From the IMG/VR virus record IMGVR_UViG_3300021356_000018, positions 1 through 64,000 of that record: a DNA stretch of 64,000 bases, one strand, 5' to 3'. The stretch's first letter is position 1. Each line of letters opens with the position of its first letter. This DNA comes from a virus. Shown in pieces: positions 11,565 through 61,506 of the stretch. Made by a program: the position numbers and the translations under genes. The notes beneath the pieces were generated by a model, which was not told where the DNA came from, ran no database searches, and saw only the letters and a list, made by a program, of their open reading frames with translations.

Positions 11565-11586
11565 GGGCCAGTCATGGCCCTTTTTT
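11565..11586 (+). terminator. Terminator between convergent units
   Basis: Stem GGGCCA/TGGCCC with a GTCA loop and six T on the plus strand. It ends the small late gene; the end of hemC (minus strand) follows at once. Confidence 0.85.
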
Positions 11587-12406
11587 ATAATAGTGACATA
11601 CCGACTCGGATTCCAATGGTCTTAAATGAATCTAGATGACCTTCTTCATAGGCTAATTTACCATTCTCAAAGTTTTTAGCTACCATTCTGATATTCTCTC
11701 CGTCAATATAGGTTAATGCACCAATCGGTGTTTGACAATCTCCGTTTATTGTTTTAAGCATTTCTTTTTCTGCCATACAACAATACCACGTTTCCATATC
11801 ATTTTTGTTTTGTATTTGTTTAATACTTTGATCGCCCTTACGAGTTTGTAAAGCAATTACACCTTGACCAGGTGCAGGCATCATATCAGCAGTACCAAAT
11901 ATACGACTTGCTTTAATAGTAATTCCCATCGCATCAAGTCCTGCTTTTGCTAAAACAATAGCATCATATTCGCTATTTTCTTGTTTAGCAATTCGAGTAT
12001 CTATATTACCACGAATAGGAACAATTTCTGCACCAGGATATAATTCTTTTAATTGCCAAATTCTGCGAGGACTACTTGTGCCAATTGTTCTTGGATTAAT
12101 ATGATTACCAATAAGTGCATCTCTAAAATCTGCTCTTGGTAATACACAGGCGATTTCTAATTTATCATCATTATCACGAGTCAAATCTTTAAACGCATGA
12201 CAAGCAATATCGATGTCACCATCTATAAGTGATTGTTCTATCTCTTTTGTAAATACTCCTTTGCCACCCATTTCTTCAATGGATGTTGTAGGATTAAGGT
12301 CGGCTGTTGAATCGATATGTACGATATCTAAATCAAGCTCTAAATGTTTTAAAGCTTTGTTTGTATAGGCGATCGCTAAGTCTGATTTACGAGTTCCTAT
12401 TTTCAT
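11585..12406 (-). CDS. hemC: Porphobilinogen deaminase (hydroxymethylbilane synthase)
   Basis: Joins four porphobilinogen units into hydroxymethylbilane in haem synthesis. Visible are the N-terminal GTRKSDLA, GGKG followed by FTKEIE, the active-site segment DIACHAFKD (Asp74), GTSSPRR, LAKAGLDAMG and PAPGQG. Cys224 in NGDCQTPIG is the residue that binds the dipyrromethane cofactor, so the enzyme looks complete. At 273 aa it is slightly shorter than cellular forms (about 310), losing C-terminal length. It ends a minus-strand run with two small membrane proteins and tRNA-Glu upstream, and the start overlaps the previous stop. HemE is encoded 9 kb away on the other strand. Confidence 0.93.
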   Translation of the reverse strand: MKIGTRKSDLAIAYTNKALKHLELDLDIVHIDSTADLNPTTSIEEMGGKGVFTKEIEQSLIDGDIDIACHAFKDLTRDNDDKLEIACVLPRADFRDALIGNHINPRTIGTSSPRRIWQLKELYPGAEIVPIRGNIDTRIAKQENSEYDAIVLAKAGLDAMGITIKASRIFGTADMMPAPGQGVIALQTRKGDQSIKQIQNKNDMETWYCCMAEKEMLKTINGDCQTPIGALTYIDGENIRMVAKNFENGKLAYEEGHLDSFKTIGIRVGMSLL

Positions 12407-12773: not shown

Positions 12774-12848
12774 TGGTACCCCGTAGGAGAGTCGAACTCC
12801 TGTTGCCGAGATGAAAACCCGGTGTCCTAACCACTAGACGAACGGGGC
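12774..12848 (-). tRNA. tRNA-Glu (anticodon UUC)
   Basis: Complete cloverleaf on the minus strand. The acceptor GCCCCGT pairs with ACGGGGT, the anticodon stem is CCGGG/CTCGG with loop TTTTCAT, and the T loop contains TTCGA. The CCA end is encoded. It is the only tRNA I found in the window. It sits directly upstream of the hemC group on the same strand; glutamyl-tRNA is also the precursor of 5-aminolevulinate in hosts with the C5 pathway. Confidence 0.95.
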
Positions 12849-15929: not shown

Positions 15930-16224
15930 TATAGCAACATTAATATCCGAATATGGCTTCCCAACAATCATGGTGGTAGGTCTAGGATATTTTGTTTATT
16001 TCGTTTGGAAATTTATTAACGAACAAATAAACCCAGCTATTGATAAACACCACATGCAACTTATTAAAGTGATTGATAGAGTAAGAATGCTCGACCAAGA
16101 CTTAATTCGTTTACAACAGAAAGTAAATGTAGTTTTGGAATATCGAGCAAGACAAGAACTGATGCAACACTATGATGATAAAATTGAGGCAGAGAAAAAA
16201 GATGAAAAAACTAAAGATAATTAA
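15919..16224 (+). CDS. Holin-like small membrane protein B
   Basis: A 101-aa protein with one membrane segment (about 14-33) and a coiled-coil, strongly charged C-terminal tail. The start is TTG at 15919, chosen because it gives the same N-terminal layout as the protein at 15423; an internal ATG would cut the membrane segment. The 3' end overlaps csgF. Possibly works with its relative and with CsgG in the envelope (inference). Confidence 0.6.
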   Translation: MEFDIATLISEYGFPTIMVVGLGYFVYFVWKFINEQINPAIDKHHMQLIKVIDRVRMLDQDLIRLQQKVNVVLEYRARQELMQHYDDKIEAEKKDEKTKDN

Positions 16225-16714
16225 TAAGACATTACTAGGGATTCTAGTTTTACTTTTATACTTTAGTGCACAGCATGTAATGGCTGAGCCTATTGTTCAT
16301 AAATTTAAAAATCCATCTTTTAGTGGAGTAGGAACTGGTGCTCATTACTTAACTATTGAGAACCAAGAACACAGCAGAAAGAAAGCAATTAAAGATGCTC
16401 TTGAAGCTGCAGAAAGAGCTGCACAAAGAGAATTAGATAATTCTACTCTATCAAAGTTTATTCGTAACTTGGAAAGTAGAATTTATGCTCAGTTAGCAAA
16501 ACAGTTAGTAGACAATATGTTCTCTAACGATGACGCAGTAAGATTTGGATCTTTTACATTGGAAGGTTCAGTCGTAACATATGAAGTCATTACAAATGCA
16601 GACGGTACAGAATTTATTAAGATGACAATTACTGACGAGAATGGTACTACAACTGTTATCGAGATTCCAGTAGGTACAGGAAACTTTGGAAGTGAGAATC
16701 CAGATGGCGGCTAA
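16202..16714 (+). CDS. csgF: Curli assembly protein CsgF-like
   Basis: Exported protein of 170 aa with a signal peptide (MKKLK start, hydrophobic core, VMA-E cleavage) and then VHKFKNPSFSG, which matches the N-terminal segment by which CsgF enters the CsgG pore and narrows it. The C-terminal part has ITDENGTTTVIEIPVG, like the end of CsgF. ATG at 16202 is used; upstream in-frame ATGs extend into the previous gene without need. It overlaps csgG by 11 nt, so both are made together. Confidence 0.85.
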   Translation: MKKLKIINKTLLGILVLLLYFSAQHVMAEPIVHKFKNPSFSGVGTGAHYLTIENQEHSRKKAIKDALEAAERAAQRELDNSTLSKFIRNLESRIYAQLAKQLVDNMFSNDDAVRFGSFTLEGSVVTYEVITNADGTEFIKMTITDENGTTTVIEIPVGTGNFGSENPDGG

Positions 16715-17675
16715 AATATTACCTGCACTTATGTCAACACTTATCTTGGCAAGTTGTGCACAAATGCCACAGTGGTCTGATGGACCAGCTTATTGTGAAT
16801 ATGGCGAAGGAAGATTTGCACAAGGATTTAATACCGATTTTGATAATGATGGTATTATAAATGATGATGCTTTAAGTTTTGGAAAACAAATATATACCGG
16901 TACTCGTAAATATGTTGAAACAAAACAAATTTGTGTCGAGGCACCAGAAGTTGTAAGGTTACCATCATATATTGATTTGCTTAATTTACCACCTGCTAAA
17001 AATAAGCCTGTGGTTGCTGTATATAACTTTTTAGATAAAACAGGACAACGTAAAGATTCAGTTTCTGGTCAAAGCTTTTCAACAGCTGTAACTCAAGGCG
17101 GAACTGAATTATTAATTGATGCACTCAAAACAGCAGGTGATGGTGCATGGTTTAGAGTAGTAGAAAGACAAGGGATTGATGCTTTAGTGAGAGAACGACA
17201 AATTATTCGTTCTGGCCGAGACGAAGCTGCTAGAGTATTAGGCGAAGAGCCACAAAATTTAGGACCACTTTTATTCGCAGGAATGATAATCGAAGGTGGT
17301 ATTATCGGTTATGATAGTAATATTAAAACCGGTGGCAGAGGAGCAAGAACACTTGGTATTGGATTTAGTAAACAATACAGACAAGACCAAGTAACTGTTT
17401 CCGTAAGAGCAGTATCTGTTCTTACAGGTGAAGTACTATTGAACGTACAAACGAAAAAGACAATTTTAAGTTATGGCTCAGGTGGTGATTTATTTAGATT
17501 TTATGAACAAGGAACACAGTTAGTAGAGTATGAAGACGGTGTAGGAAATAATGAGAGTGTGACGTATGCAGTGCGAACAGCAATAGAAGCTGCCGTGCTG
17601 GAAATGGTCTATCAAGGTAATCGTCGTGGATACTGGGAAATAGACTGGAATAAAAATAAAGAGGAAGAAGAATGA
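16704..17675 (+). CDS. csgG: Curli secretion channel CsgG
   Basis: Outer-membrane lipoprotein channel, 323 aa. The signal sequence ends in the lipobox LASC (Cys18). The CsgG domain includes VVAVYNFLDKTGQ, WFRVVERQGIDAL, the RQIIRSGR stretch, GGIIGYDSNIKTGG and VTVSVRAVSVLTGE. In E. coli nine copies form the pore that exports curlin subunits. The ATG at 16704 is preferred to TTG upstream. The last 10 residues are very acidic. The next gene overlaps by 4 nt and encodes a curlin-like substrate. Confidence 0.93.
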   Translation: MAAKILPALMSTLILASCAQMPQWSDGPAYCEYGEGRFAQGFNTDFDNDGIINDDALSFGKQIYTGTRKYVETKQICVEAPEVVRLPSYIDLLNLPPAKNKPVVAVYNFLDKTGQRKDSVSGQSFSTAVTQGGTELLIDALKTAGDGAWFRVVERQGIDALVRERQIIRSGRDEAARVLGEEPQNLGPLLFAGMIIEGGIIGYDSNIKTGGRGARTLGIGFSKQYRQDQVTVSVRAVSVLTGEVLLNVQTKKTILSYGSGGDLFRFYEQGTQLVEYEDGVGNNESVTYAVRTAIEAAVLEMVYQGNRRGYWEIDWNKNKEEEE

Positions 17676-18397
17676 TTAGAAAACTTTTAGGCCTAAGTTT
17701 AATTATTCCAACTTTCGCATTTGCGCAAGCTACTGACGATAATGAAATTAATATTGAGCAGGTTGGTGATACTTTAACACTATACATTGACCAATATGGA
17801 TATGGTAACAAAATAGGATTGGACAACTTTTCAAGTAGTTCAAGTGCTATGGTAATTACTGGTTCAAGCTTAGATATTGATATCGACCAAATAGGTAACG
17901 AAAACTTGTTATTTGGTACATTAACAGCAGATAGCTATGTTATGAATCTATTGTTTACTGGTGACAGTAACTCTTGGGATTGGAACATTGGTGATACAGG
18001 CTCATCTGATAGCTCTACAATGGATGTGGATATCACAGGTGATTCTAACACTATGGACTTTGACCAAGGATTTAATGCAAGTGCTGAGAGATTGGATTTT
18101 GATTTAACCTTAATAGGTGACAGTAATATTTTTGATGTTGATATTGACGTGGACGACGCAATATGGAATTTTGACGTAACGGGTGGTTCAAACAATATTA
18201 ATACTATGCAGAAAGATGGAGCAGAACATGAGATTAATTTAACTCTCGATGGTTCATCTGCTGATATTGATATTAATCAAATGAGTGGAACATGCCCTAC
18301 AGGTGTATCAACTTGTAATGGCATTATTACATTAGATGTCGACAGCGAAAATGCTACAATTCAGATTAATCAAAAAGATTCATCTAACGATAGCTAG
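17672..18397 (+). CDS. Curlin-repeat exported protein 1 (CsgA/CsgB-like)
   Basis: A 241-aa exported protein with a clean signal peptide (cleavage after AFA-Q near residue 19). After NEINIEQVGD and IDQYGYGNKI come repeated blocks of alternating hydrophobic residues with Q-x-G or G-D-S/N-x steps, the pattern of curlin beta-solenoid repeats, though very Asp-rich. A Cys pair lies near the C-terminus (TCPTGVSTCNG). It is the likely substrate of CsgG, with a 4-nt overlap. The high Asp content is unlike E. coli CsgA. Confidence 0.8.
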   Translation: MIRKLLGLSLIIPTFAFAQATDDNEINIEQVGDTLTLYIDQYGYGNKIGLDNFSSSSSAMVITGSSLDIDIDQIGNENLLFGTLTADSYVMNLLFTGDSNSWDWNIGDTGSSDSSTMDVDITGDSNTMDFDQGFNASAERLDFDLTLIGDSNIFDVDIDVDDAIWNFDVTGGSNNINTMQKDGAEHEINLTLDGSSADIDINQMSGTCPTGVSTCNGIITLDVDSENATIQINQKDSSNDS

Positions 18398-19502
18398 TAT
18401 TTTCCTAATGTTGCCGTTGAGTTTGTCTGCAGCAGACTCAATTGGCAACATTGTTGAATACAAAGGCGATGCAACTTTAACCAGAGAAGCTGGTGAAGAG
18501 TTTGTAGTAACTGGTGCGTTTATACCAGACATCGAAATGAACGATACGGCCGAAACAGAAAATGGCCGAATTAAAATAGAATTTTTAGACGAGGCAGAAC
18601 TTAGCCTCACAGAAAACACAAAAGTATACATCGATAAAGTATACTATGACCCAGACCCAAGCAAATCAAAAATGGCCATGAGAATGGCAATGGGAACTGC
18701 AAGATTTGCATCTGGTCGTTTGGGTATGGTCAATAAAAACAATATTGATATACAAACACCCACAGCTACAATATCAGTTCGTGGTACAGATTTTACAACA
18801 ACAATAGACGAATTAGGGAGGAGCCTCGTAGTACTACTTCCTGATGATAAAGGTAATCCATCAGGCACAATAGAAGTATTCAATCTGGGTGGTTCTGTGA
18901 TTCTAGATGAGGCCTACGCAGCTACAATGGTCTCAACTTTAGATAGTCCACCCACTAATTCTGTCACAATAAACAATATAACACCAGCGATGATTGATAA
19001 CATGTTTATCGTATCACCGCCTCAAGAAGTACAAGAATCTATAGACGAAGAGTTAGCAGATGACGCAAACCAAGACCAAGGTTTACTTGACATTGACTTC
19101 TTAGAATTTAATGAATTAGAATATGATTATTTAGCTGATGACGCTTTAGAATTTACAGAATTAGATATTGATTATCTTGATGTAGATTTCTTAACTGACC
19201 TTTTAGATGTAGTAGAAGAATTAGTTAAAACTACAGCAGCACTCGACGATAGAGCTATTTCAAGTAGTTCTTTTGGAGCACAACTTAAGGGTGCAGATTT
19301 TGGATTAAATGCAGATTCGCAATACAACGTTTTTGAAGATAGTGGTAGAATTGTATTTTACAGAAATGTACAAGGAACAATACGACTCGTATTTGCAGTA
19401 GATGCTTCAGTTAAACTTGACACTGAAGTAGATGGATATTCTGGTATCATTGACTTGAACAATGGCCAAAATTCAATAATTGTAATTAAGCAAGGTGGAT
19501 AA
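18351..19502 (+). CDS. Exported FecR-domain protein
   Basis: About 383 aa with a signal peptide (hydrophobic core around residues 12-24, SLSAAD cleavage) and a FecR domain between about 30 and 145, including PTATISVRGTDF, the family's signature. Residues about 230-290 are an acidic repeat of DIDFLEF-like units, and the C-terminus forms a small beta domain. The start is uncertain because the frame overlaps the curlin gene; ATG 18351 gives a sound signal peptide. FecR proteins bind in the periplasm and are often found next to CHASE2 cyclases, as here 2 kb downstream. Confidence 0.85.
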   Translation: MLQFRLIKKIHLTIASIFLMLPLSLSAADSIGNIVEYKGDATLTREAGEEFVVTGAFIPDIEMNDTAETENGRIKIEFLDEAELSLTENTKVYIDKVYYDPDPSKSKMAMRMAMGTARFASGRLGMVNKNNIDIQTPTATISVRGTDFTTTIDELGRSLVVLLPDDKGNPSGTIEVFNLGGSVILDEAYAATMVSTLDSPPTNSVTINNITPAMIDNMFIVSPPQEVQESIDEELADDANQDQGLLDIDFLEFNELEYDYLADDALEFTELDIDYLDVDFLTDLLDVVEELVKTTAALDDRAISSSSFGAQLKGADFGLNADSQYNVFEDSGRIVFYRNVQGTIRLVFAVDASVKLDTEVDGYSGIIDLNNGQNSIIVIKQGG

Positions 19503-19505
19503 ATA
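19498..19505 (+). promoter_or_regulatory. Possible late box GATAAATA
   Basis: GATAAATA at the FecR stop, just before the 29-aa ORF and the second curlin gene. It could give these genes extra late expression. Confidence 0.35.
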
Positions 19506-19508
19506 ATA

Positions 19509-19598
19509 ATGAGGTATAAAAATAATTACCAACGTTATTTAAGATTAAAATATGGATGGTTGCAAAGACCAGGACAGATAGTGGATATTTACATATGA
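19509..19598 (+). CDS. 29-aa leader ORF before curlin 2
   Basis: ATG at 19509 to TGA at 19598, basic and aromatic (begins MRYKNNYQRYLRL). AAGGTGG lies upstream, and the stop overlaps the start of the next gene as ATGA. That overlap fits translational coupling. It could be a genuine micro-protein or a control ORF. Confidence 0.45.
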   Translation: MRYKNNYQRYLRLKYGWLQRPGQIVDIYI

Positions 19599-20344
19599 AA
19601 GACGAAAAAATAGATAGAGGTTTACTATACTTAGGATGGTTCATTCTAGGAATGTATTTGTTTCTTGCTGCAGGAAAAGCTTATGGCGATAACGAAATCA
19701 GTATAGAACAAACCGGAGATAATCTTCAATTAGGCATCGACCAATTTGGTTATGATAATGTAATCCAAATGTTAGATAGTAATTCATACATTACAGCATC
19801 GAGTTTGGATATGTATTTGGTTCAATACAATGACCATACAACAACACTTCCTAATTCAATTACATTTGATGAAGTAAGTGGTTCAGGTAATCAAATGAAA
19901 TTAGGTCAAGGTGTCGATTGGGATACTCTCGATTCTGATACAGATTTAAATTGGTCATATGATTACTATGAAGGTGGTGGACACGAGATTGATATTACTT
20001 TATATGGTAACAATAATCAATTGGCAGTTCAACAAACAAACCAAACAGATGCAACAGACGGACACAACTTTGATTTACATTTAGCAGGTAGTAATAACGA
20101 AGTTAAAATTAAACAACAAAGTAGTGGCGTAAAGAATGTAGACCTTACAATATACAACGATTTTAACGATGTGTTCATTCGCCAAAAAGGCGCCAATGCA
20201 ACTCATAATGCTAATATTACTCTTGATGGTTTATATGGAACAGATTTAATTTTAAAACAAATGAGTACAACTAATCAGACATATAACTTATCAGTAGATT
20301 GTATGAACTCGAATGGTTGTGGTGTAACGGTGACGCAAGAATAA
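19595..20344 (+). CDS. Curlin-repeat exported protein 2
   Basis: About 249 aa. I start it at 19595 because of the ATGA overlap with the small ORF and because this gives a good signal peptide (hydrophobic 9-27, GKAYG cleavage). NEISIEQTGDNLQLGIDQFG repeats the opening of curlin 1, so the two are paralogues. Further strands carry Asn/Gln ladders (NNNQLAVQQ, NNEVKIKQQ, NDVFIRQKG), a closer match to CsgA than copy 1. Two Cys lie near the end (DCMNSNGCG). Likely CsgG substrate. Confidence 0.8.
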   Translation: MKDEKIDRGLLYLGWFILGMYLFLAAGKAYGDNEISIEQTGDNLQLGIDQFGYDNVIQMLDSNSYITASSLDMYLVQYNDHTTTLPNSITFDEVSGSGNQMKLGQGVDWDTLDSDTDLNWSYDYYEGGGHEIDITLYGNNNQLAVQQTNQTDATDGHNFDLHLAGSNNEVKIKQQSSGVKNVDLTIYNDFNDVFIRQKGANATHNANITLDGLYGTDLILKQMSTTNQTYNLSVDCMNSNGCGVTVTQE

Positions 20345-20657: not shown

Positions 20658-21593
20658 ATGAAAACATTATTACAAAGGACCATACAGGATAAAGAGGTCA
20701 ATTTATATCCTGTTTGGTTAATGAGACAAGCCGGAAGATACATGCCAGAATATATGGCGATCAAAGAAAAATCAAATGGCTTTTTAGATATGGCTCTTAC
20801 TCCAAGTAAGGCAGCAGAAATTACAATGCAACCTATTAAAGAATTTGATATGGATGCAGCAATTATATTCTCAGACATATTAATAATCAATTATGCTTTA
20901 GGGCAAGAATTAGATTATACACCTAGTCCCGTACTGGGACCTTATAACGAATCTTTTTGGGAAACAACAGAAGGTGAGTTTATTCAAAAATGCGAACCTG
21001 TTTATGAAGCTATCAGAAGAGTAAGAGAAGAACTTGATGATAGTAAATCACTTATTGGTTTTGCAGCAGCTCCTTATACGCTCTGTAAGTACATGTGTGA
21101 TTCTGTAGATTCAGATATAGTTAACCGATTAATACCATATATTGTAACTCACCTTTCAATGCAGATTGAAGCTGGTTGTGATACGATACAAATATTCGAC
21201 AGTCATGCTGGTGATATATCGGAACATGACTTTGATGAAATTGTTATTGAACCAACAAAAATAATTGTTGATGTTATTCGAGCACATTATCCTCATGTTT
21301 GTATTATAGCTTTCCCAAGATTAGTTGGTGATAAAATAAACAAATACATCGAGATTGTCAATCCAGATTGTACAAATATTAGTGATGATAAACCCGTCGA
21401 TGAAATACACGGTGAAGTATTACAAGGTGGAATAACAGTACAAAGACTCATAAACGGAGAAGATATAACTCCTGTATTAGATAAAATGAAAGATAAACCT
21501 TACGTAGTAAATCTTGCTCATGGCATACATAAAACTACACCAGTAGAAAATGTGAGAGCATTAGTTAATACTGTTAAGGAATATCGTGCTTAA
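20658..21593 (+). CDS. hemE: Uroporphyrinogen decarboxylase
   Basis: Removes four carboxyl groups from uroporphyrinogen to give coproporphyrinogen. The signature PVWLMRQAGRYMPEY (Arg23, Arg27) and FSDIL with Asp73 are intact, as are FAAAPYTL and NLAHGIHKTTPVENVRALV at the C-terminus. It has 311 aa, slightly short for the family (about 340-350). It lies 2 nt after the previous gene and overlaps the cyclase gene by 8 nt. Together with HemC it covers two steps of the haem pathway; HemD and HemB are not in the window. Confidence 0.95.
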   Translation: MKTLLQRTIQDKEVNLYPVWLMRQAGRYMPEYMAIKEKSNGFLDMALTPSKAAEITMQPIKEFDMDAAIIFSDILIINYALGQELDYTPSPVLGPYNESFWETTEGEFIQKCEPVYEAIRRVREELDDSKSLIGFAAAPYTLCKYMCDSVDSDIVNRLIPYIVTHLSMQIEAGCDTIQIFDSHAGDISEHDFDEIVIEPTKIIVDVIRAHYPHVCIIAFPRLVGDKINKYIEIVNPDCTNISDDKPVDEIHGEVLQGGITVQRLINGEDITPVLDKMKDKPYVVNLAHGIHKTTPVENVRALVNTVKEYRA

Positions 21594-23658
21594 ATATCTC
21601 ACAAAATGGTGGACTGTATTAATTACGATTGGTGCATTCGGTGCTTTACAAATTAGTAATCCAGATATAATTCAATCTTTTAAATATTCTTATTATGACT
21701 ATCTACAATCAACACAAGAAACAATACAGTCAAGCGATATAGTATTAGTCAATATTGACGAAAAGGCGATCGCTCAAGAAGGTCAGTATCCATGGCCTCG
21801 AGATATAGTTGCTAAATATTTAAATGAAGCTCCTGCTGATGCACTTAATGTATTGAACATAATATATTCCGAACAAGATAGATTTGGTAAAGACAATGAC
21901 CTCGCAGAAGCAATGGCAAATAAAGCTGTCGTATTATCTTCTGCTCCCACTCAACAAACATCAGATGGAGTTGGAACCTTCGTTGGTGTTGCATTATTTG
22001 GAGAACAAAATGATAACTGGCTTTACGAATTCCCAGGCTTACTCTATCCTATTAATGAGTTATCTAGCTGGGCTTTTGGGGTTGGTGCTACTGTTGCAAT
22101 TCCTGACCAACCAACAGGAGTCGTGCGACGTGCACCGCTCGTTGTCAAAGCAGCCGGGAATCCCTACCCATCTCTCGCACTCGACACATTACGTGTGTAC
22201 TCTGGAGAACCAAGCTATCAGATGAAAGTCGGCACTAACGGTGTCGAATGGATTCGTATGGGAAGACAAAATCCAATTACAACAAACTCTTTTGCAGAAG
22301 TACCAATATCTTTTTGGAATGAGTTTGACTCAATCAGTATAACAGAATTATCTGAACGAACAACTCATGGCCAGAATCCCTGGAGCGGTAAAGTACTTTT
22401 ATATGGAATAACCGCAGAAGGTTACTCTAATCCAGTCGCAACCCCAATGGGTGCAAAGTATCCCCACGAAGTTCAAGCTCATCTGATTCAAACCGTTCTT
22501 TCAGGAGTTGAAATACAGATTCCCGACTGGCAGCCAATATTTGAGCTCGTCTTTCTTCTGATATGCTGTTTAGGAATCCTTGCAGCGGTCTATGGACTTC
22601 CCACAATTCCTGCGGTGATAAGTTCTCTTGCTCTTGTTGGTTCCGCTTACGGAGTAAGCTACTGGCTTTGGACCGATTCATTGACATTCGTCGACGCGAC
22701 ATTGAGTTCATTTGCTTCCTTAGTAGTATTTGCTCAATCAAGTTATAATAAGTATTATATCACGTTCCAAGAGAAACGTCAAATAGAAAAGCAATTTGCA
22801 GGTTATGCATCGCCCACAGTTGTTCGCCTCTTACAAGAGAATCCTTCTCTAATAAAAGATGGCATGAAACGTGAGATAAGTATTTGTTTTTCTGATTTGA
22901 GAGGTTTCACTCCGCTTGGGGAAAGTTTCGGTGACGACGTCAAAGGCTTGACTAAACTAATGAATGGATATATGGATGCTATCACCGAGCCTGTTCTCCA
23001 TGCAGATGGTATGATTATAAAGTATATAGGGGATGCGTCAATGCACATTCACAATGCACCTATAGAAGATAAAGAACATCCTAAAAATGCAGTACAAACT
23101 GGTATTAACATGCTTCGAGCAGTGGAGAAATTTAATGAACAGATTACGGCAGAAGGTAGACCACCAATTGGTATGGGGGCTGGGATTAACACTGGTCTTG
23201 GTTATCTTGGTGAGATGGGGTCTACAGCAAGACATAGTTATGACGTCCTTGGCGACAGCGTTTCAACTGCTGCACGAATTGAGTCAAAATGTAAAGAATA
23301 TGGTTGCTTATTATTAGTCGGTGAAGAAACAGTTAAACGATGTTCTCCTAATGATTTCTTTTTCTTAAAAGTAGATGACCTTGCAGTGAAAGGAAAAACA
23401 GTCGGAATTGGAATACACACTGTGTTAGACCTAGATAAGAATAAATATATTAAACCAGCAGAGATGCACGAAGCAATGCATTCAAATTATCAAAAGCAAA
23501 ACTTTGATAAGGCGATAAAAATATGTAATGACCTCATGGATTGCTTCGAAGGACAAATGCAAGGTTATTATAAAATGTGGATTGAGCGTTGTGAGTATAT
23601 GAAAACGCAAGATCTTCCGAAGGACTGGAATGGAGTTTTCATCGCGACCACTAAGTAG
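21586..23658 (+). CDS. CHASE2-sensor class III adenylate/guanylate cyclase
   Basis: A 690-aa membrane cyclase. Residues 8-22 are a membrane segment, about 30-310 an extracytoplasmic CHASE2 domain (IVLVNIDEKAIAQEGQYPWP), then three membrane segments at about 318-384, and a class III catalytic domain from about 428. Metal ligands Asp437 (FSDLRGFT) and Asp483 (YIGDAS), base-binding Lys479 and Asp553, and Arg564 are present. The transition-state Asn of the NxxxR motif is Ser560 (DSVSTAARIE), which may lower or change activity. About 75 residues follow the domain. The FecR gene nearby is a usual partner. Product cAMP or cGMP is inferred. Confidence 0.93.
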   Translation: MLKYLTKWWTVLITIGAFGALQISNPDIIQSFKYSYYDYLQSTQETIQSSDIVLVNIDEKAIAQEGQYPWPRDIVAKYLNEAPADALNVLNIIYSEQDRFGKDNDLAEAMANKAVVLSSAPTQQTSDGVGTFVGVALFGEQNDNWLYEFPGLLYPINELSSWAFGVGATVAIPDQPTGVVRRAPLVVKAAGNPYPSLALDTLRVYSGEPSYQMKVGTNGVEWIRMGRQNPITTNSFAEVPISFWNEFDSISITELSERTTHGQNPWSGKVLLYGITAEGYSNPVATPMGAKYPHEVQAHLIQTVLSGVEIQIPDWQPIFELVFLLICCLGILAAVYGLPTIPAVISSLALVGSAYGVSYWLWTDSLTFVDATLSSFASLVVFAQSSYNKYYITFQEKRQIEKQFAGYASPTVVRLLQENPSLIKDGMKREISICFSDLRGFTPLGESFGDDVKGLTKLMNGYMDAITEPVLHADGMIIKYIGDASMHIHNAPIEDKEHPKNAVQTGINMLRAVEKFNEQITAEGRPPIGMGAGINTGLGYLGEMGSTARHSYDVLGDSVSTAARIESKCKEYGCLLLVGEETVKRCSPNDFFFLKVDDLAVKGKTVGIGIHTVLDLDKNKYIKPAEMHEAMHSNYQKQNFDKAIKICNDLMDCFEGQMQGYYKMWIERCEYMKTQDLPKDWNGVFIATTK

Positions 23659-24267: not shown

Positions 24268-24594
24268 ATGGTGGAACTAACAGATGCAGCAATACTTAAA
24301 GCGATTGAGAGAACAGAGAATGACAGCCGAGATACTATTCGTCTTGGTGTCACTGGGGGCGGGTGTGCTGGTTTTGAGTATATCATTGGTTACTCTGATT
24401 CAGTGGGCAATGACGATACTATCTTAGATTATGGCAAATTTAAAATTGCTATTGACGAGATGTCTAAGCCTTATCTAAAAGATTCTACTCTTGATTGGGT
24501 TCGCGAAGGACTCAATGAATACTTTAAAATTATTAATCCAAACGAAATAGCATCATGTGGATGCGGAGTATCAGTACAGTTTAAGGACGTTTAA
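24268..24594 (+). CDS. A-type Fe-S carrier (IscA/ErpA/HesB family)
   Basis: A 108-aa protein with the three conserved Cys of A-type carriers: one in GGGCAGFEY and two in CGCGVS near the C-terminus. These proteins carry Fe-S clusters to target enzymes. No other ISC or SUF gene is in the window, so it must work with the host's system. HesB-like genes are known in marine T4-like phages. Confidence 0.92.
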   Translation: MVELTDAAILKAIERTENDSRDTIRLGVTGGGCAGFEYIIGYSDSVGNDDTILDYGKFKIAIDEMSKPYLKDSTLDWVREGLNEYFKIINPNEIASCGCGVSVQFKDV

Positions 24595-52253: not shown

Positions 52254-52709
52254 TTACAGTGTAATTTCGCTGGCGTCATATATCGACCAAGCAACTCCTG
52301 CTTCTAAAAACATATTGGATGTTTTAGTAAAGGAACTCTTCCAATTATCTGGTACATCTTCTGCTGCCATAACAGTTCTTACACATCCTACTTGAATTAT
52401 GCCTTTTGCACATTCATGGCAAATTGGTAAACCCCAAACGTATGCAGTTGCACCACGAAGAGATTGACCATGAGCTGTGGCATTGTATATACCATTCATT
52501 TCTGCATGAGATACTAACTCATACTTAAGCTCTCTATCGTTGTATCGTTCTTCTGTATCTTCGATACCTCGTGGAAAGCCATTATAACCTGTAGAGACGA
52601 TTCTACGATTGACAACATAGACAGCACCTATTTGTTTAGATGGGTCTTTACTCCATGTAGAAACTTCTCTTGCTAATCTTAAAAATCTTACATCCCATTT
52701 ATCTGGCAC
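52254..52709 (-). CDS. cd: dCMP deaminase
   Basis: A 151-aa zinc deaminase making dUMP. SHAEMNGI (His, Glu) and ICHECAKG (two Cys) give the zinc site, preceded by STWSKDPSKQIGAV. I use GTG 52709, seven nt after GAGGAA in the end of the gene upstream; this gives the usual family start. T4 Cd is 193 aa. It competes with the hydroxymethylase for dCMP. Confidence 0.92.
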   Translation of the reverse strand: MPDKWDVRFLRLAREVSTWSKDPSKQIGAVYVVNRRIVSTGYNGFPRGIEDTEERYNDRELKYELVSHAEMNGIYNATAHGQSLRGATAYVWGLPICHECAKGIIQVGCVRTVMAAEDVPDNWKSSFTKTSNMFLEAGVAWSIYDASEITL

Positions 52710-53364
52710 TAATAAGTTCCTCAATAAAGTTGAAGTGTCTTTCGTAAACATGGAAGTTGGATGCTGTCCATATCAAATTACCACATTGAACACCGAGTTC
52801 ATATGCAAGTTTATGTTGAACGCTTCTTGCCCATGCTTTATCATTGTTATAACCAAAGACTGCATCGTTCGAACGCATCAGATAATGAGATTCAAGTTGA
52901 CCATCGCGAATATAAAATGTATTTGCATATGTACACATAAAGTCATTCATGCCATCGCGAGACATATCGACATGCATACTTGGTCTATTGTATATCATAG
53001 TGGCTCTACGTGAATTTGGATTGTTTTTCAGTTCACGCAAAACATGTTTATATTGGTTACCATTATCTTCAGAATAAATGCACCAGCCGTAATTAGAATT
53101 AATCTCACCTTCTGTTGATGCAATTGATTTCCATATCTGAGGAGTTTCTCCAGGAATATCGTTTACATTAAGCGATTGAGATTCATACCATTCCAATTCA
53201 CGTTCGATGTACTCATAGGCTGGTTTACGAATAACATAGTCTTCGTCTGCAATAAATGTTGCACCAATGATTTCAATAGTTTTAGCACCTGTTCTGTCGA
53301 TTACAAAATCTTCATCAAGGTACTTATCAATAATCAGTTGTCTTATGTTACCAACTGTTAACAT
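52699..53364 (-). CDS. gp42: dCMP hydroxymethylase (gp42)
   Basis: A 221-aa thymidylate-synthase-fold enzyme close to T4 gp42 (246 aa): KTIEIIGATFIAD, RELEWYESQSLNVNDIPGETP, GEINSNYGW, DGMNDFMCT with catalytic Cys144, and MRSNDAVFGYNND. Asp175 replaces the Asn of thymidylate synthase, which is what lets T4 gp42 use dCMP. Makes 5-hydroxymethyl-dCMP. The end is about 20 aa shorter than T4. Strong sign that phage DNA contains hydroxymethylcytosine. Confidence 0.92.
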   Translation of the reverse strand: MLTVGNIRQLIIDKYLDEDFVIDRTGAKTIEIIGATFIADEDYVIRKPAYEYIERELEWYESQSLNVNDIPGETPQIWKSIASTEGEINSNYGWCIYSEDNGNQYKHVLRELKNNPNSRRATMIYNRPSMHVDMSRDGMNDFMCTYANTFYIRDGQLESHYLMRSNDAVFGYNNDKAWARSVQHKLAYELGVQCGNLIWTASNFHVYERHFNFIEELISAR

Positions 53365-53618
53365 TAAATACTCTCCAGCAATGCTTCCATATCTTCAACT
53401 TCAGTTACTACTGAGCTGATATTTTGTTTGTGAAAAACTCTTGCAGCTTTTCGTAGTGTTGCTTTTGGGATATCAACATCATCTGCTAATGCATCAATTG
53501 CATCTTTTTGGAATGCTCTTTCGCCTTCCATTCTTACATATGAATTACTAATTTCTTCAAATGCACCACGTATGCGTTTTTTATCTTCTTCGCTTGAAGG
53601 TATAATGATATTACTCAT
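53364..53618 (-). CDS. DsbA-like late-transcription DNA-binding protein
   Basis: An 84-aa helical protein. ATG at 53618 has AGGAGAAATAGAG upstream. The KATLRKAARVFHKQN segment and acidic tail recall T4 DsbA (89 aa), which binds late promoter regions. Similarity by eye only. Confidence 0.55.
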   Translation of the reverse strand: MSNIIIPSSEEDKKRIRGAFEEISNSYVRMEGERAFQKDAIDALADDVDIPKATLRKAARVFHKQNISSVVTEVEDMEALLESI

Positions 53619-53949
53619 CTCTATTTCTCCTGTTAAATACATCATGACGAGGGTCTTGGCCTGGAATCATATGTCGAGCATATGCAACAAAGAAACTCGA
53701 ATAGTTAATTAAGTCTTTAGCTGAATCTTCAAGCGATTCAAAGTTGGGTTCGTAATCATCAGATTGCATGGCTTCCATGACAGATTTCATGCGGAGCATT
53801 TTAGCGTGCATGATGTCATGGATTGTGGTTAAGCCATTAGGATAATAGTCCGCTTGGGAAACGGACGAATTAGGATTCTGATAATCACGAGATTTTTGTT
53901 CTTGTAAGTCAATGCATTCTTGCAAGACGTTTACAGATTCTCGGGACAT
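53611..53949 (-). CDS. Nmad1 (DUF1599)-like protein
   Basis: A 112-aa helical protein: KSRDYQNP, THDIMHAKMLRM-type segment and ESLEDSAKDLINYSSFF fit the Nmad1 family (nucleotide modification associated domain 1). ATG at 53949 has AAGGTGAAAAC upstream. Family members occur beside base-modification genes; the reaction is not known to me. It sits directly before the gp42 pair. Confidence 0.65.
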   Translation of the reverse strand: MSRESVNVLQECIDLQEQKSRDYQNPNSSVSQADYYPNGLTTIHDIMHAKMLRMKSVMEAMQSDDYEPNFESLEDSAKDLINYSSFFVAYARHMIPGQDPRHDVFNRRNRDE

Positions 53950-53980
53950 AGTTTTCACCTTTTTCATAATTTAAAGTGTT

Positions 53981-54009
53981 ATTATAACACGTTGTGTAAG
54001 TTTTGTCAA
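53981..54009 (-). promoter_or_regulatory. Early sigma70 promoter
   Basis: TTGACA (54009-54004), 17 bp, TATAAT (53986-53981), minus strand, for Nmad1, DsbA-like and gp42 genes. Confidence 0.88.
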
Positions 54010-54014
54010 CCTTT

Positions 54015-54248
54015 TTATACAACTTTTGGTGGCACTGGCTTAGCAAAATGATTGTTTACATTTAAGAGTTTGTCTTCAGCTTCAGATAATAGCTCTAACT
54101 CTTTGTCAATCGTTTCAATAACACCAGGATGTTCTGCAACACCTACGCCATTCTCAAGCATAACAGTAATATTTGCTTTATGCTCAGCAATTGCAGCTTG
54201 ATACTTAGCGATCAAAGCTTGTAAAATTGTTTCTCTCAGTTCTTTCAT
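54015..54248 (-). CDS. Small coiled-coil phage protein
   Basis: A 77-aa helical protein, KELRETILQALIAKY at the start and an IDKELELLSEAEDKLL helix later, with a Gly-rich link. Conserved type in cyanophages from memory; unknown function. Confidence 0.7.
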   Translation of the reverse strand: MKELRETILQALIAKYQAAIAEHKANITVMLENGVGVAEHPGVIETIDKELELLSEAEDKLLNVNNHFAKPVPPKVV

Positions 54249-54257
54249 GATATACTC

Positions 54258-54659
54258 CTATAAGTCTGAAAATTTGCCGTGATTACCTTCATGCGAAGGT
54301 GGGTACCAATCATCGGGCTTAATTAAATCTGGTACTCCAAGTGGATTAGGGCGAGATGGCTTTTCACCTACCTCTTTGTTCATATTAGCTTTAAGAACTT
54401 CGTCCCAAGCTTTATAAGGGTCGACACCGAAAGCATCGAGTGTGCCTATGGCAACAACACATAGGTCAATTAATCCATCTACAATTTCTTCTGCATCATT
54501 TTCAGATACAGCTTTACGAGTTTCTTCTAGTTCTTCATTGAGAAAGTCAACACGAAACTCGAGAAACTTTTTTAGTTTCTCTGGATTGTTTTCAACCCAT
54601 TGTCTTGTTAGATATTTACCTTGCATTAAGTGAATATCTTCTACCCAGTTTTTACTCAT
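54258..54659 (-). CDS. MazG-like nucleotide pyrophosphohydrolase
   Basis: A 133-aa all-alpha NTP pyrophosphatase. FLNEELEETRKAV provides the E-E-x-x-E helix and EIVDGLIDL the second acidic helix. ATG at 54659 has AAGGAATGCCT upstream and overlaps the cytochrome gene end by 8 nt. Substrate could be dUTP, dCTP or a modified nucleotide. In T4 dCTP is destroyed to favour modified C; this enzyme might do it (inference). Confidence 0.75.
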   Translation of the reverse strand: MSKNWVEDIHLMQGKYLTRQWVENNPEKLKKFLEFRVDFLNEELEETRKAVSENDAEEIVDGLIDLCVVAIGTLDAFGVDPYKAWDEVLKANMNKEVGEKPSRPNPLGVPDLIKPDDWYPPSHEGNHGKFSDL

Positions 54660-54969
54660 TAGGCATTCCTTGTTGAATGTATACGCCGATGGTACCAATT
54701 TGACCATCTGTTAAACCTTTAGCTGTGGGCCACATCATTGCAGATTGTGGTCCTACGACTTGACCTGCTTTATAAGCAAGTAGTTTTGAAATAATGTAAT
54801 CAGCATTTTGTCCTTGTAATTTAGGACCTAGTCCGCCTTGGCCTTGTGGGCCATGACATGCTGCACATGTATTCCAAACTTGTCTGATATCTTTGAAGCT
54901 ATCAAGATTGTCTTCTGCTGCTGCATTTGCTGATAACACTAATGTCATCGCGATAATTAATTTGTTCAT
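54652..54969 (-). CDS. Exported c-type cytochrome
   Basis: A 105-aa class I cytochrome c. Signal peptide (cleavage ANAAAE near 18), haem-binding CAACH (Cys35, Cys38, His39), GLGPKLQGQ, and the axial Met in SAMMWPTAKGL (Met78 or Met79), ending in a helix VYIQQG. Closest to small c553/c5-type carriers. It must be matured by the host Ccm system in the periplasm. Overlaps glutaredoxin by 4 nt. Phage-made electron carrier. Confidence 0.92.
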   Translation of the reverse strand: MNKLIIAMTLVLSANAAAEDNLDSFKDIRQVWNTCAACHGPQGQGGLGPKLQGQNADYIISKLLAYKAGQVVGPQSAMMWPTAKGLTDGQIGTIGVYIQQGMPNE

Positions 54970-55181
54970 AGTTTTGCCTCTAGTTCTGTATATCCACCTA
55001 TAGCTTCACCGTCCATAGTAATCTGAGGAAACGTTCGAGCTGTAGGAAACTTTTCAAAAAATTCTTCAGTGGTATAATCTTCTTGTAGAGTTAAGTACTC
55101 ATACTCTACACCTTTCTGTTCACATAGTGATTTTGCCATTACACAATAACCACATGATGGTTTACCATAAATTGTTACCAT
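54966..55181 (-). CDS. Glutaredoxin
   Basis: A 71-aa glutaredoxin with CGYC active site, FPTARTFPQI (cis-Pro) and DGEAIGGYTEL. Reduces disulfides; could serve ribonucleotide reductase or the phage peroxiredoxin. Confidence 0.93.
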   Translation of the reverse strand: MVTIYGKPSCGYCVMAKSLCEQKGVEYEYLTLQEDYTTEEFFEKFPTARTFPQITMDGEAIGGYTELEAKL

Positions 55182-55189
55182 AGTTTCTC

Positions 55190-55480
55190 CTATACTAATT
55201 TAAGTCCACCACTCGAGTCAGGCATTGCAATACCTGTAGTAGCTTCAATAACTTGTCTTTTCAATTCATCAGCAGGTTCTAACTGGAACATAACATGTTG
55301 TTCGCCAATAACTACTGGGCCACGTTTTGCATAAGGTACAAATGGAACCATTCCGATTTTACCTTCTCCTGCCGGAACTAACAGAATAGCGTCTGTTAAT
55401 GTGTAAAAGCCTTTGTCATAACTGACTTCTGCAACAACCTCTTCGCCCGTTACTAGCCTTACAATTTGTACATCTTTCAT
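55190..55480 (-). CDS. Small beta-barrel phage protein
   Basis: A 96-aa protein. VRLVTGEEVVAEV and ILLVPAGEGKIGMVPFVPYAK look like an Sm-like or SH3-type barrel, followed by a disordered tail with a VIGEQHVMF strand. Highly conserved type in marine T4-like phages; function unknown. Confidence 0.7.
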   Translation of the reverse strand: MKDVQIVRLVTGEEVVAEVSYDKGFYTLTDAILLVPAGEGKIGMVPFVPYAKRGPVVIGEQHVMFQLEPADELKRQVIEATTGIAMPDSSGGLKLV

Positions 55481-55506: not shown

Positions 55507-55535
55507 ATTATAACACGTTTGTTTGTATTTGTCAA
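55507..55535 (-). promoter_or_regulatory. Early sigma70 promoter
   Basis: TTGACA (55535-55530), 17 bp, TATAAT (55512-55507), minus strand, for the gene at 55480 and onwards to cytochrome c. It touches the polymerase stop. Confidence 0.88.
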
Positions 55536-58078
55536 CCAAAAAATAAATCCAATGTATCTTGTTTTTCAGAAGTCCAGCCGAGAGCTTCAATGATATGCTC
55601 GATAGGACTAAGGAATACTTTACCGAATTGTGTTTCGTAATCTATATATCGCTCGAGTCCAAGTTCTGGCGGTAGAACAGTTGGGAATGAGATAACATTT
55701 TCACGTATCGGATTTGGTACTTTGAGATACACAAACTTTACCTTATCGCCTGACTGAATGGACTCGTATCGTTTACTGAGACCTTTGTCTTTAAGATAAT
55801 GGTTAAATAATATGCAACCACGAACATGTATTGGACAACCTTTCTTGTATCCACCCTTGGTCATATACTTCTCGATATTGTCAGTACCTGAGTTACGACC
55901 AACAGCTTCTGCAGGAAGTTTAAAGAACTCTTGTTTGAAGTCTGCAATAAATTTTTGAGTCTGTTCTTCACCTTCGTTTAGAATTACGCTGAAGATTTCA
56001 CGCATTTTGTCACGACATACTTCTGGCGTTGATGAACGAACTGATTCAAGTCCTGTCACACTGATTTTTGGTTTTTCGTAATGTACACCTTCTGAGTTAA
56101 GCGTATTAAGTATATATCGCTTTTTAGCAATGAAGATTGCACGGTCATTAATTTTCTCACGTTTCATTACCATCGCATTACGATAGGCACCCATATCAGA
56201 TGCAAGCTTCTCGTAACCTTGTTCGATAATCTGTTCGATTTTAGTTTGGCATACTTTATCAAGGAACTCTTCGCCAGTCTTGCGATCGATGTCAGTCGTA
56301 CCATAGACCTTTTCAACGAGGTCTGCAAAGTTAACGTAAATTGAGTCAGTGTCGATATAGATGATATAGTCTTTGTCTTTTGTTTTCAGTACTTTGTTGA
56401 GATAATCGTTTACAGACTTTTGTGCATATCGAATCGAGAGCTGACCTGATGTGGTAATAGCTTCAGCCATATCATTAATATAGTATAAGAAGTATATGTT
56501 TGCTGTAGCACCATAGAGTGAGTTCATCGAAATTTTTATCGACATTTGAGAATTGTGCAATTGGTTAGCTTCTGTCTTAAGCTTTTTCTTTTCTGTAGGG
56601 TCAGTTTCAACTTCAAGTTGTTGTTCAACCGCAAGCATTTGCTTTTTGATTTGAGCACGATTATTATAGTACTCATCAATAATCTCGGGAATAATACCGA
56701 GTTTATCATTACTGAAACATGCACCATTTGCAGCAACAGAATATGATTTATTGTTATTTTTAAATTCGTCTTTAAGTACCATATCTTGAGATACATACTC
56801 ACGTTCATCTTGCAAATAAGTTTCAGGTGACATATTGTATTGAAGCATCAAGTGAGGATACAGTGAGTTCAAGTCAAATGATACTACCCAAGGGTACATT
56901 GCAGGTTTAGGGTCTTTAACATAACCACCTACAAGACCAGAACCTCGTTGACCTGGTGATTCTTTGATTGGTGGAACAATCTTGTCACTCATCAGTTTAC
57001 GATAGATAATAGATTCCCATATACCTACAGTGCCGAATGCATCGTTATAGTTAACTCCACCACCATAAGCAACAGTCATCACAAGAGCAAGTAGAGATGT
57101 TTCCTCTTCCAACCTTTCAATGAGCTGTGTGTCTTTTAAGTTATAGTCGAGATAGAGTTGCGGGTTCTGTTCGTATAAAGCATTTAGATTACCATATTCA
57201 GAATAATCCAATTTCTTTTCACCGAGTACAACATTCGCAATATGGTCAAGTCTGTAGGATTCTTGTGGTCCGTACTTGTAACCAAACTTTTTAAACGCAT
57301 CCATATAGTCAATAACAGCAACACCTGAGATTGTGTAAGATGATTGTACCTTACCAAACACTTCTCGCGAATATTTACGAATATTATTCCAAGGGCTGAG
57401 TCGTTTGGATAATTCCTCACCACATAGATTTGTAATACGAGTCACAATATACTGAATGTCAAAGTATTGTACGTTCCAACCAGTTACAACGTCCGGATAA
57501 TCAGATACCCATATCTCAACGAATCGTCTGAGTAATTGTACCTCTGAGTCAAATTTGATGAATACAATATTCTCGGGGTCGATACCAGTAATAGTTTTTG
57601 TCTTATCAAAATCTTTGCGTCCAAGCAAATAGTACAGGTTTGATTTAGATGATTTATATGCAATAGATGTGATTTCTTTGTCAGCATATTCTGTGTTTGC
57701 ATACCCATCGCTGATATCGACCTCGATATCGAAGGAGACGATGTTGACTTGGTTAATGTCATAACGTACATCGTCGGGATAATTCTCTTGAATAAATTGA
57801 GCAGTATAGTTTGTGTTACCAAAGATTTTCATGCCATGAACACCTTTGTACTCTTCAGTAAATTCTTTAGCTTCACGCATTGAGCCAAACTGCTGAGGAC
57901 TCAATGGTAAGTTACCTTTAAGGGAAGTATATCCCTCGTCACCAGATTTTGGTGTGTGTAAGTAAAGAGTTGGTTTGTAAGGAACGCGATATGAGAAACG
58001 TTTACCGTTTTCGTAACCACGATGCAAGATGTTATTGCCGTAACGCTCGACTGAAGTGTAAAAAGAAGTCATACTCAT
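55532..58078 (-). CDS. gp43: DNA polymerase (gp43, family B)
   Basis: An 848-aa replicative polymerase with proofreading (T4: 898). Exo I SFDIEV (Asp117, Glu119), exo II GWNVQYFDI, motif A FDLNSLYP (Asp402), motif B KISMNSLYGA and motif C IDTDS (Asp576, Asp578) are all intact. ATG at 58078 or at the third codon. Confidence 0.98.
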   Translation of the reverse strand: MSMTSFYTSVERYGNNILHRGYENGKRFSYRVPYKPTLYLHTPKSGDEGYTSLKGNLPLSPQQFGSMREAKEFTEEYKGVHGMKIFGNTNYTAQFIQENYPDDVRYDINQVNIVSFDIEVDISDGYANTEYADKEITSIAYKSSKSNLYYLLGRKDFDKTKTITGIDPENIVFIKFDSEVQLLRRFVEIWVSDYPDVVTGWNVQYFDIQYIVTRITNLCGEELSKRLSPWNNIRKYSREVFGKVQSSYTISGVAVIDYMDAFKKFGYKYGPQESYRLDHIANVVLGEKKLDYSEYGNLNALYEQNPQLYLDYNLKDTQLIERLEEETSLLALVMTVAYGGGVNYNDAFGTVGIWESIIYRKLMSDKIVPPIKESPGQRGSGLVGGYVKDPKPAMYPWVVSFDLNSLYPHLMLQYNMSPETYLQDEREYVSQDMVLKDEFKNNNKSYSVAANGACFSNDKLGIIPEIIDEYYNNRAQIKKQMLAVEQQLEVETDPTEKKKLKTEANQLHNSQMSIKISMNSLYGATANIYFLYYINDMAEAITTSGQLSIRYAQKSVNDYLNKVLKTKDKDYIIYIDTDSIYVNFADLVEKVYGTTDIDRKTGEEFLDKVCQTKIEQIIEQGYEKLASDMGAYRNAMVMKREKINDRAIFIAKKRYILNTLNSEGVHYEKPKISVTGLESVRSSTPEVCRDKMREIFSVILNEGEEQTQKFIADFKQEFFKLPAEAVGRNSGTDNIEKYMTKGGYKKGCPIHVRGCILFNHYLKDKGLSKRYESIQSGDKVKFVYLKVPNPIRENVISFPTVLPPELGLERYIDYETQFGKVFLSPIEHIIEALGWTSEKQDTLDLFFG

Positions 58079-60909: not shown

Positions 60910-61506
60910 TTAATCTCCAGTGTTCAGGTCTAATACTTCTTCTGCCTGAGCTTTTTCTTTTTGTGCCATAGCATTAAGATATGTCATGGCTTCTCGCATT
61001 TTCTTTCTTTGTTTTTGGATTTTATTTTTCTTAGTCGTAGCTCTATCCCATTTGAGACGAGATACTTTTTCTTTAAATACTACCCCGTTAAGGTGGTCAA
61101 ACTCATGCAAGAAGCATCGAGCACCATATCCATCAAGTGTTCCGCTTTGTTTCTCACCATGTTCATCTAGCCATTCAGCTGAAACTGTTTTTGGTCTAGC
61201 AATATTTAAGAACATGTCTGGAAAGCTTAGACAACCTTCTGGCGCCAATTCTGTTTCTTCACTAAAGGAAAGTATCTTTGGATTGATTACCATGATAGCA
61301 GATTCTCTTGTTTCTCCAATTACGAAGCAACGCATGTTCAAACCAACTTGTGGAGCAGATAGGCCAATACCTTTCTTATTTACCATCAAGTCAACCATTT
61401 GTTCTTTCAAGTCTGCAGCATCTGCGAATATTTCTTTGACTTTATCAAAATCAAAATCTTCCATTCCTTTCCCAAGAATTGGGTCGGGGTAGTATACTAA
61501 TTTCAT
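60910..61506 (-). CDS. def: Peptide deformylase
   Basis: A 198-aa metallo-hydrolase. GIGLSAPQVGL, EGCLSFP (metal Cys) and HEFDHLNG (HExxH) are the three motifs. Removes formyl from new proteins; phage copies are known in cyanophages. The last 35 residues are a basic helical extension. Confidence 0.95.
   Translation of the reverse strand: MKLVYYPDPILGKGMEDFDFDKVKEIFADAADLKEQMVDLMVNKKGIGLSAPQVGLNMRCFVIGETRESAIMVINPKILSFSEETELAPEGCLSFPDMFLNIARPKTVSAEWLDEHGEKQSGTLDGYGARCFLHEFDHLNGVVFKEKVSRLKWDRATTKKNKIQKQRKKMREAMTYLNAMAQKEKAQAEEVLDLNTGD

Follow-up and report, generated by a model that had tools for sequence, protein, structure and literature searches.

Cyanophages offer the best-described case of viruses taking over energy metabolism, through photosystem genes, plastocyanin, and PTOX, and the phage electron carriers already known include plastocyanin and ferredoxin. 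The family described here is that of a phage haem cytochrome c, unlisted in phage databases. The cyanophage cassette of petE (plastocyanin) and PTOX combines a small electron carrier with a quinol oxidase in T4-like marine phages (PMC3037559), and that paper cites a proposal by which PTOX helps to keep ATP and NADPH in balance during infection. Closer to respiration, vAlaS and other phage tetrapyrrole genes have been connected by those who described them with the supply of haem to respiration (PMC11480375), and sequences of a viral cbb3 oxidase subunit from viromes of the Indian Ocean led to the attribution of respiratory parts to marine viruses (PMC3474794). Neither a phage cytochrome c nor an alternative oxidase (AOX) in phages of heterotrophs turned up in the open-access literature; other journals and preprints may differ.

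The cytochrome gene and its operon

The locus lies in the window, i.e., the whole stretch of 64,000 nucleotides that was analysed, which belongs to an IMG/VR virus contig of 64,222 bases carrying both gp43 and Gp23. By sequence, gp43 marks the genome as T4-like, and Gp23 supports a T4-like virion. The features concerned are, with positions in the window and strand:

10135-11196 (+), Gp23 major capsid protein (PF07068, E 8e-146)
52254-53967 (-), nucleotide-metabolism unit of a phrog_18404-like 'hydrolase', a 93-aa ORF, thymidylate synthase, and dCMP deaminase (phrog_160, E 1e-57; phrog_174, E 1e-36), in the same order in relatives
53981-54009 (-), next sigma70-type promoter (12/12 consensus matches)
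54015-54248 (-), 77-aa protein, last gene before that promoter (phrog_1811, E 3e-21)
54258-54659 (-), nucleotide pyrophosphohydrolase of the MazG/PRA-PH type, 133 aa when started at the ATG of 54659 (PF01503, E 4.4e-12; phrog_671, E 8.6e-22)
54652-54969 (-), exported class I cytochrome c, ATG start, 105 aa (PF00034)
54966-55181 (-), glutaredoxin (CGYC), T4 NrdC-like (PF00462, E 3.1e-13; phrog_22, E 6.7e-19)
55190-55480 (-), 96-aa protein, first gene of the operon, with the same place ahead of glutaredoxin in relatives (phrog_527, E 6.7e-15; no Pfam match)
55507-55535 (-), sigma70-type promoter TTGACA-N17-TATAAT with extended -10 (TG before the -10), 12/12 consensus matches, likely driving the cytochrome operon
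55532-58078 (-), T4-type DNA polymerase gp43 (polB; tblastn 44.8% over 100% to cyanophage S-RIM12, the best of 2583 phage records)

The open reading frame at 54652-54969 (cytC hereafter) was confirmed at the sequence level as a phage-encoded class I c-type cytochrome. Its product consists of a predicted signal peptide, MNKLIIAMTLVLSANAAA, followed by a mature part that begins ED, EDNLDSFKDIRQVWNTCAACHGPQGQGGLGPKLQGQNADYIISKLLAYKAGQVVGPQSAMMWPTAKGLTDGQIGTIGVYIQQGMPNE; the signal peptide covers residues 1-18 and, as read from the sequence, has an AxA-type end. The protein scores above the gathering score of Pfam Cytochrom_C (PF00034, E 1.2e-7), and its haem motif CAACH (C35-A-A-C38-H39) lies near the N-terminus. 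Within a Met pair at residues 78/79, M79 is invariant (126/126 distinct phage sequences with a residue there) and is also kept in the cellular rows of the alignment; since M79 is the invariant one, it is the likely axial ligand rather than M78. Across the 126 distinct phage sequences, C35, C38, H39, P49, L51, and M79 show no variation, an invariance that is partly due to selection, as the search patterns favoured CxxCH (some with CAACHG) and, in two scans, Met too. The sequence-only reading of this DNA, made before our analysis, had described a small cytochrome c with signal peptide, CAACH, and an axial Met, and the Pfam match, the motif at residues 35-39, and the invariant M79 bear this out.

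A helical cytochrome c fold was predicted for window cytC by an AlphaFold2 model (mean pLDDT 86, with blocks of 94-98 over most of the mature domain) and its alignment to solved structures. With VIA-align, the model matched 8yts at Z 12.4 (80 residues), the c554 structure 2zzs at Z 11.6, and the c552 structure 1cno at Z 11.4; among those that followed was 8smr_K, the c4 chain in the bc1-cbb3 supercomplex of P. aeruginosa, at Z 10.7. Structures of c6 reached only Z 5.8-5.9, against 12.4 for the c4-like best, and none of the 16 PDB sequence matches to cytC was a c6. With one CxxCH and 105 aa, window cytC lacks the two haem domains of cytochrome c4 and resembles only a c4 half. Judging from its sequence features, it is probably functional and exported.

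The start of cytC shares 4 bases with the end of the glutaredoxin gene (54966-54969), and its stop shares 8 bases with the MazG start (54652-54659), so that glutaredoxin, cytC, and MazG look translationally coupled. The unit between the two promoters comprises the 96-aa ORF, glutaredoxin, cytC, MazG, and the 77-aa ORF, and is bounded at 53981-54009, because the promoter there starts the following unit. Perfect or near-perfect members of the TTGACA-N17-TATAAT family occur at 21 sites in the window, spanning 14.9-63.2 kb, and several share the core CGTGTTATAAT. Since 21 sites stand against 1.3 expected and nearly all are on the (-) strand, the set fits host-sigma70 early promoters. The proposal of an early operon with glutaredoxin, also part of the sequence-only reading, thereby gains sequence support from the PF00462 neighbour and the 12/12 promoter upstream.

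We found the order gp43, 96-aa protein, glutaredoxin, cytC, MazG, and, further on, thymidylate synthase and dCMP deaminase to be kept in ~40 IMG/VR contigs from many samples; the gene thus recurs beside glutaredoxin in T4-like virus contigs, where the earlier reading had proposed to look for it. This gene order persists down to ~57% glutaredoxin identity, with small insertions in some contigs. A first scan of IMG/VR returned 45 loci with cytC relatives, and a second, alignment-based scan returned 80. A perfect sigma70-type promoter stood at the same distance from the operon in all 60 loci holding that stretch (among them some overlapping copies of one contig), with diverged spacers. Upon estimating dN/dS for cytC, we obtained 0.28 in the window's group and 0.26 and 0.26 in two other groups, i.e., the gene is under purifying selection (dN/dS ~0.27). 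It lies in a virus genome between virus genes and is kept by selection, as an auxiliary metabolic gene is.

The cytochrome family and its neighbours

A scan with the membrane-anchored form returned at least 524 viral relatives of cytC, the best 80 of which were inspected. The extent of this family, its anchored form, and the RNR (ribonucleotide reductase) and AOX neighbours described below go beyond the sequence-only reading. Contigs with cytC that exceed 130 kb include IMGVR_UViG_3300032087_002150, 3300020056_002227, and 3300021960_000023. Export signals in the phage family are of three kinds: a cleavable signal peptide, a lipobox (e.g., LLLAGC), and an N-terminal helix. In the anchored form, the N-terminal TM helix is followed by a conserved C-x-G-x-C-Y segment (L361-L437, e.g., L285, L296); in 369 gammaproteobacterial genomes, nearly all matches covered the cytochrome part only, and just a few weak ones reached this segment. 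In one phage contig (L182, 8098-8854), the gene right after cytC encodes a membrane protein of the DoxX family (PF07681, E 4e-6). Proteins of window cytC, an anchored form (L177), and a group II form (L153) had no tblastn match in the 50,697 records of INPHARED, 0 of 48 family members matched PHROGs, and a BFVD fold search with cytC gave none at E 0.001 (best E 0.6), a missing match there being no proof of absence.

Phylogenetic placement, which had been proposed with the sequence-only reading, returned mono-haem c4/c553-like proteins of Gammaproteobacteria as the nearest cellular relatives found, no close cellular donor in the genome samples searched, and a clade of the phages' own. Identity of window cytC to cellular relatives was at most ~40% over its length in a pattern-limited scan, and the best cellular profile match had E 2.4e-23 (samples of 274 and 398 genomes). 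As read from the sequence, some cellular sisters adjoin what appears to be a PQQ-type sugar dehydrogenase in Marinobacter-like genomes, and others an oxidoreductase of ~1200 aa that is accompanied by another mono-haem cytochrome. In a careful tree of 84 rows and 82 columns, 44 of 48 phage representatives formed one clade (support 96/91) apart from the cellular cytochromes, in which the soluble forms, window cytC among them, make up one subclade (94/90) and the anchored forms another (95/92). The rows L173, L182, L184, and L298, all from phages, were not resolved near the base, giving three label changes and not one. A quick tree placed all 49 phage rows on one side of a branch (SH-aLRT 85). 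With trees that rest on 82-84 columns only, the plain reading is that phage cytC would be a long-separate virus lineage whose exact root is unsettled with so few columns.

Genes for AOX stand beside cytC relatives in other phages. Phage AOX genes were noted in these records:

L141, 10306-10872 (+), AOX (PF01786), starting at the cytC stop
L144, 1562-2149 (+), AOX (PF01786)
L153, 122-694 (+), AOX (PF01786)
L274, L285, and L291, further AOX genes (PF01786)

In group II phages, the AOX matches PF01786 at E 1e-63 to 1e-68, and the acidic and His residues expected as di-iron ligands are invariant. Six of the 27 cytC records carry AOX; the record of the window, itself a fragment, has none, so that the pairing is seen only in relatives. 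An AOX scan returned at least 545 viral relatives, and among 80 of these loci, 22 had cytC in the flank, several at 0.4-1.4 kb. INPHARED held one AOX relative (62.9%), annotated as 'hypothetical', in phage C48C1 of the Kyanoviridae. Compared to PTOX, the phage AOX gave a marginal PHROG match only (E 0.002), and at the sequence level, it is a family distinct from cyanophage PTOX. A cyanophage origin of the cytC records was set aside, with no reaction-centre gene (psbA/psbD, PF00124) in 34 of 34 records, some of 130-200 kb and most of them fragments; not every cyanophage has psbA/psbD.

Around the anchored form, grouped into 29 clusters at 70% identity, NrdB lay within 2.5 kb of cytC in 17, glutaredoxin within 1.2 kb in 21, AOX within 6 kb in 8, and IscU or IscA within 6 kb in 10, counts that are lower bounds because the contigs are fragments and that stand without a random-gene control. 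The family assignments of these neighbours were confirmed. Glutaredoxin and RNR are common genes in T4-like phages. Anchored cytC often sits between NrdB and glutaredoxin, and many phages have NrdA-NrdB-cytC-glutaredoxin(-AOX) operons. As glutaredoxin lies upstream of cytC in the window type and mostly downstream in the anchored type, there are at least two different gene orders, so that the adjacency of the two genes appears to be more than chance. Phage IscU-like and A-type Fe-S assembly proteins were observed near cytC and glutaredoxin at L181 4915-5328 and L177 673-1014.

The window also holds genes of haem and Fe-S metabolism:

11585-12406 (-), HemC (PF01379/PF03900)
20658-21593 (+), HemE (PF01208)
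24268-24594 (+), A-type Fe-S carrier (PF01521)

The sequence-only reading had drawn on these genes in suggesting that the phage adjusts the electron transport chain. All three are real. The link of HemC and HemE to cytC is weak: the two occurred in 1 of 27 cytC virus records, being absent from the other 26 searched (several of 78-108 kb), an absence that is suggestive and not final because these records are fragments. Hence, HemC and HemE do not visibly travel with cytC. We dropped them as general partners of cytC, as they were seen in the window record only, and they may add to haem supply in the window phage alone. INPHARED matches to HemE and HemC were 24-36% identical, and several look bacterial.

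Other features of the window deserve mention in their own right. Its only tRNA, tRNA-Glu(UUC) at 12774-12848 (-), adjoins HemC (-); glutamyl-tRNA is the entry substrate of the C5 tetrapyrrole pathway. At 16172-20344 (+), CsgG (PF03783, E 1e-54) is encoded together with a FecR-domain protein and a weakly matched curlin-repeat protein (E 8e-4), a curli-like export/fibre set; a protein with CHASE2 and adenylate/guanylate cyclase domains at 21586-23658 (+) lies between HemE and the Fe-S carrier; and a peptide deformylase is found at 60910-61506 (-) (PF01327, E 4e-40).

Proposed role and alternatives

Because hundreds of marine contigs hold cytC, some beside AOX and many among genes for DNA building blocks, we suggest that viruses with cytC patch the host respiratory chain during infection. 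The AOX genes beside cytC relatives strengthen the view of the sequence-only reading that electron transport is adjusted by the phage. Our main reading, to which we assign a probability of about 0.6, is that cytC carries electrons in the periplasm and so sustains respiration in the infected host for dNTP synthesis. Its starting points are read from the DNA, namely the identity and predicted fold of cytC, its export signals, ligand conservation, selection, operon, promoter, clade, and AOX/RNR neighbours; the loading with haem, the redox partner, the way in which electrons flow, the gain for the phage, and the host are inferred.

In bacteria, host Sec provides export and host Ccm haem attachment; proteins of the c4/c552 kind accept electrons from bc1 or from periplasmic dehydrogenases and pass them on to cbb3 or to other terminal acceptors; and AOX oxidises quinol without proton pumping. 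Early in infection, the phage would make cytC from its host-type sigma70 promoter, host Sec would export the predicted protein, and host Ccm is assumed to link haem to C35/C38, where H39 and M79 would be the axial ligands. In the periplasm, the cytochrome would then take single electrons from an assumed bc1 (or from a periplasmic dehydrogenase) and deliver them to a terminal oxidase, the simplest assumption being the cbb3 type that is served by c4/c5-like proteins. Electron flow, proton motive force, and ATP could thereby be kept up during host gene shut-off and phage dNTP synthesis, and in phages with AOX, quinol electrons would be vented too. Window cytC would be one member of a large virus-specific family, in which other members are TM- or lipobox-anchored and many lie in NrdA-NrdB-cytC-glutaredoxin operons.

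The gene neighbourhood also lends itself to a different role, in which cytC would serve a dNTP/iron-redox cassette of glutaredoxin, Fe-S carriers, and class I RNR instead of the main respiratory chain, e.g., by feeding a periplasmic peroxidase or by lowering O2 and peroxide harmful to di-iron and Fe-S enzymes. The position of anchored cytC between NrdB and glutaredoxin in many operons and the IscU/IscA genes in 10 of 29 anchored clusters favour such a role, as does the place of window cytC between glutaredoxin and MazG, near thymidylate synthase and dCMP deaminase. We nevertheless regard it, including these specific functions, as unlikely: cytC and glutaredoxin act on opposite sides of the membrane, the neighbourhood of cytC yielded no glutaredoxin in group II phages (L141, L144, L153, and kin), and no peroxidase gene was recognised adjoining cytC among the neighbours looked at. 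The separation of the cytoplasmic glutaredoxin from the periplasmic cytochrome also weighs against our main reading, as the two genes may adjoin just because they are expressed at the same time. It is quite improbable, in our view, that cytC diverts or blocks host respiration by taking bc1 electrons and delivering them poorly, or by outcompeting the host cytochrome, with flow passing to the phage AOX uncoupled from proton pumping. AOX does bypass bc1 and the oxidase, and some phages pair it with cytC, but its electrons come from quinol and not from cytochrome c, the axial Met and fold of cytC are as in ordinary carriers, and no AOX was seen in most cytC loci, including that of the window.

Phages do acquire host genes, and the dN/dS of cytC (0.28) is higher than that of its operon neighbours glutaredoxin (0.17) and MazG (0.14), as might be expected if cytC were a recently captured passenger, a transient host gene with no function in the phage. 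Yet, the phage-specific clade, the low identity to cells, the purifying selection, and the same operon position and promoter across deep divergence make this very hard to sustain. An assembly join with host DNA, which the earlier reading had named as a possible refutation and which the metagenomic source of the contig could have produced, was ruled out by the recurrence of the same junctions in ~40 other IMG/VR contigs of many samples; with T4-type gp43 and gp23 on the same record, we give almost no credence to either a join or a false virus call.

Returning to cytC as a respiratory carrier, we see roughly even odds for a wider statement: that marine T4-like phages of non-photosynthetic bacteria carry a respiratory module of a virus-specific cytC (soluble, lipoprotein, or anchored), in some with AOX, expressed with RNR and glutaredoxin, by which respiration would be re-plumbed to pay for dNTPs. 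Such a module, present in hundreds of virus contigs and unlisted in phage databases, would be a counterpart of the cyanophage photosynthesis module. If marine phages of heterotrophs indeed carry cytC and AOX in or near a DNA-precursor operon, viral control of host respiration becomes concrete and testable, with consequences for modelling oxygen use in infected seawater communities. The cytochrome clade and the AOX family, the former missed by current phage annotation, would provide marker genes for such phages in any metagenome.

Relation to known systems

Among cellular proteins, window cytC is most like the mono-haem c4/c552/c554-like cytochromes of Gammaproteobacteria (1cno, 2zzs, 8yts) and c4 halves, sharing the fold, CxxCH, GPxLxGQ, and distal Met region at 33-35% identity and Z 11-12. 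It differs from the gammaproteobacterial c4-like proteins in having its own clade, a CHGPQGQGG(I/L)GP and M-(W/Y) signature, and a place in T4-like early operons. Compared to the tetrapyrrole genes (PMC11480375), where AlaS, HemO, and bilin reductases were described, the present case involves HemC, HemE, and the cytochrome itself. Where the Indian Ocean work (PMC3474794) concerned an oxidase subunit from virome sequences, we find a cytochrome c whose genomic surroundings can be read from long contigs.

In its logic, the petE/PTOX cassette comes closest: an electron carrier and a quinol oxidase occur in the same phage in 6 of 27 cytC records, the window record being one without AOX. In these phages, a haem cytochrome stands in for the copper protein and AOX for PTOX, with no photosystem reaction-centre gene in the 34 records examined. 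By this analogy, cytC is best read as a respiratory counterpart of cyanophage plastocyanin/PTOX.
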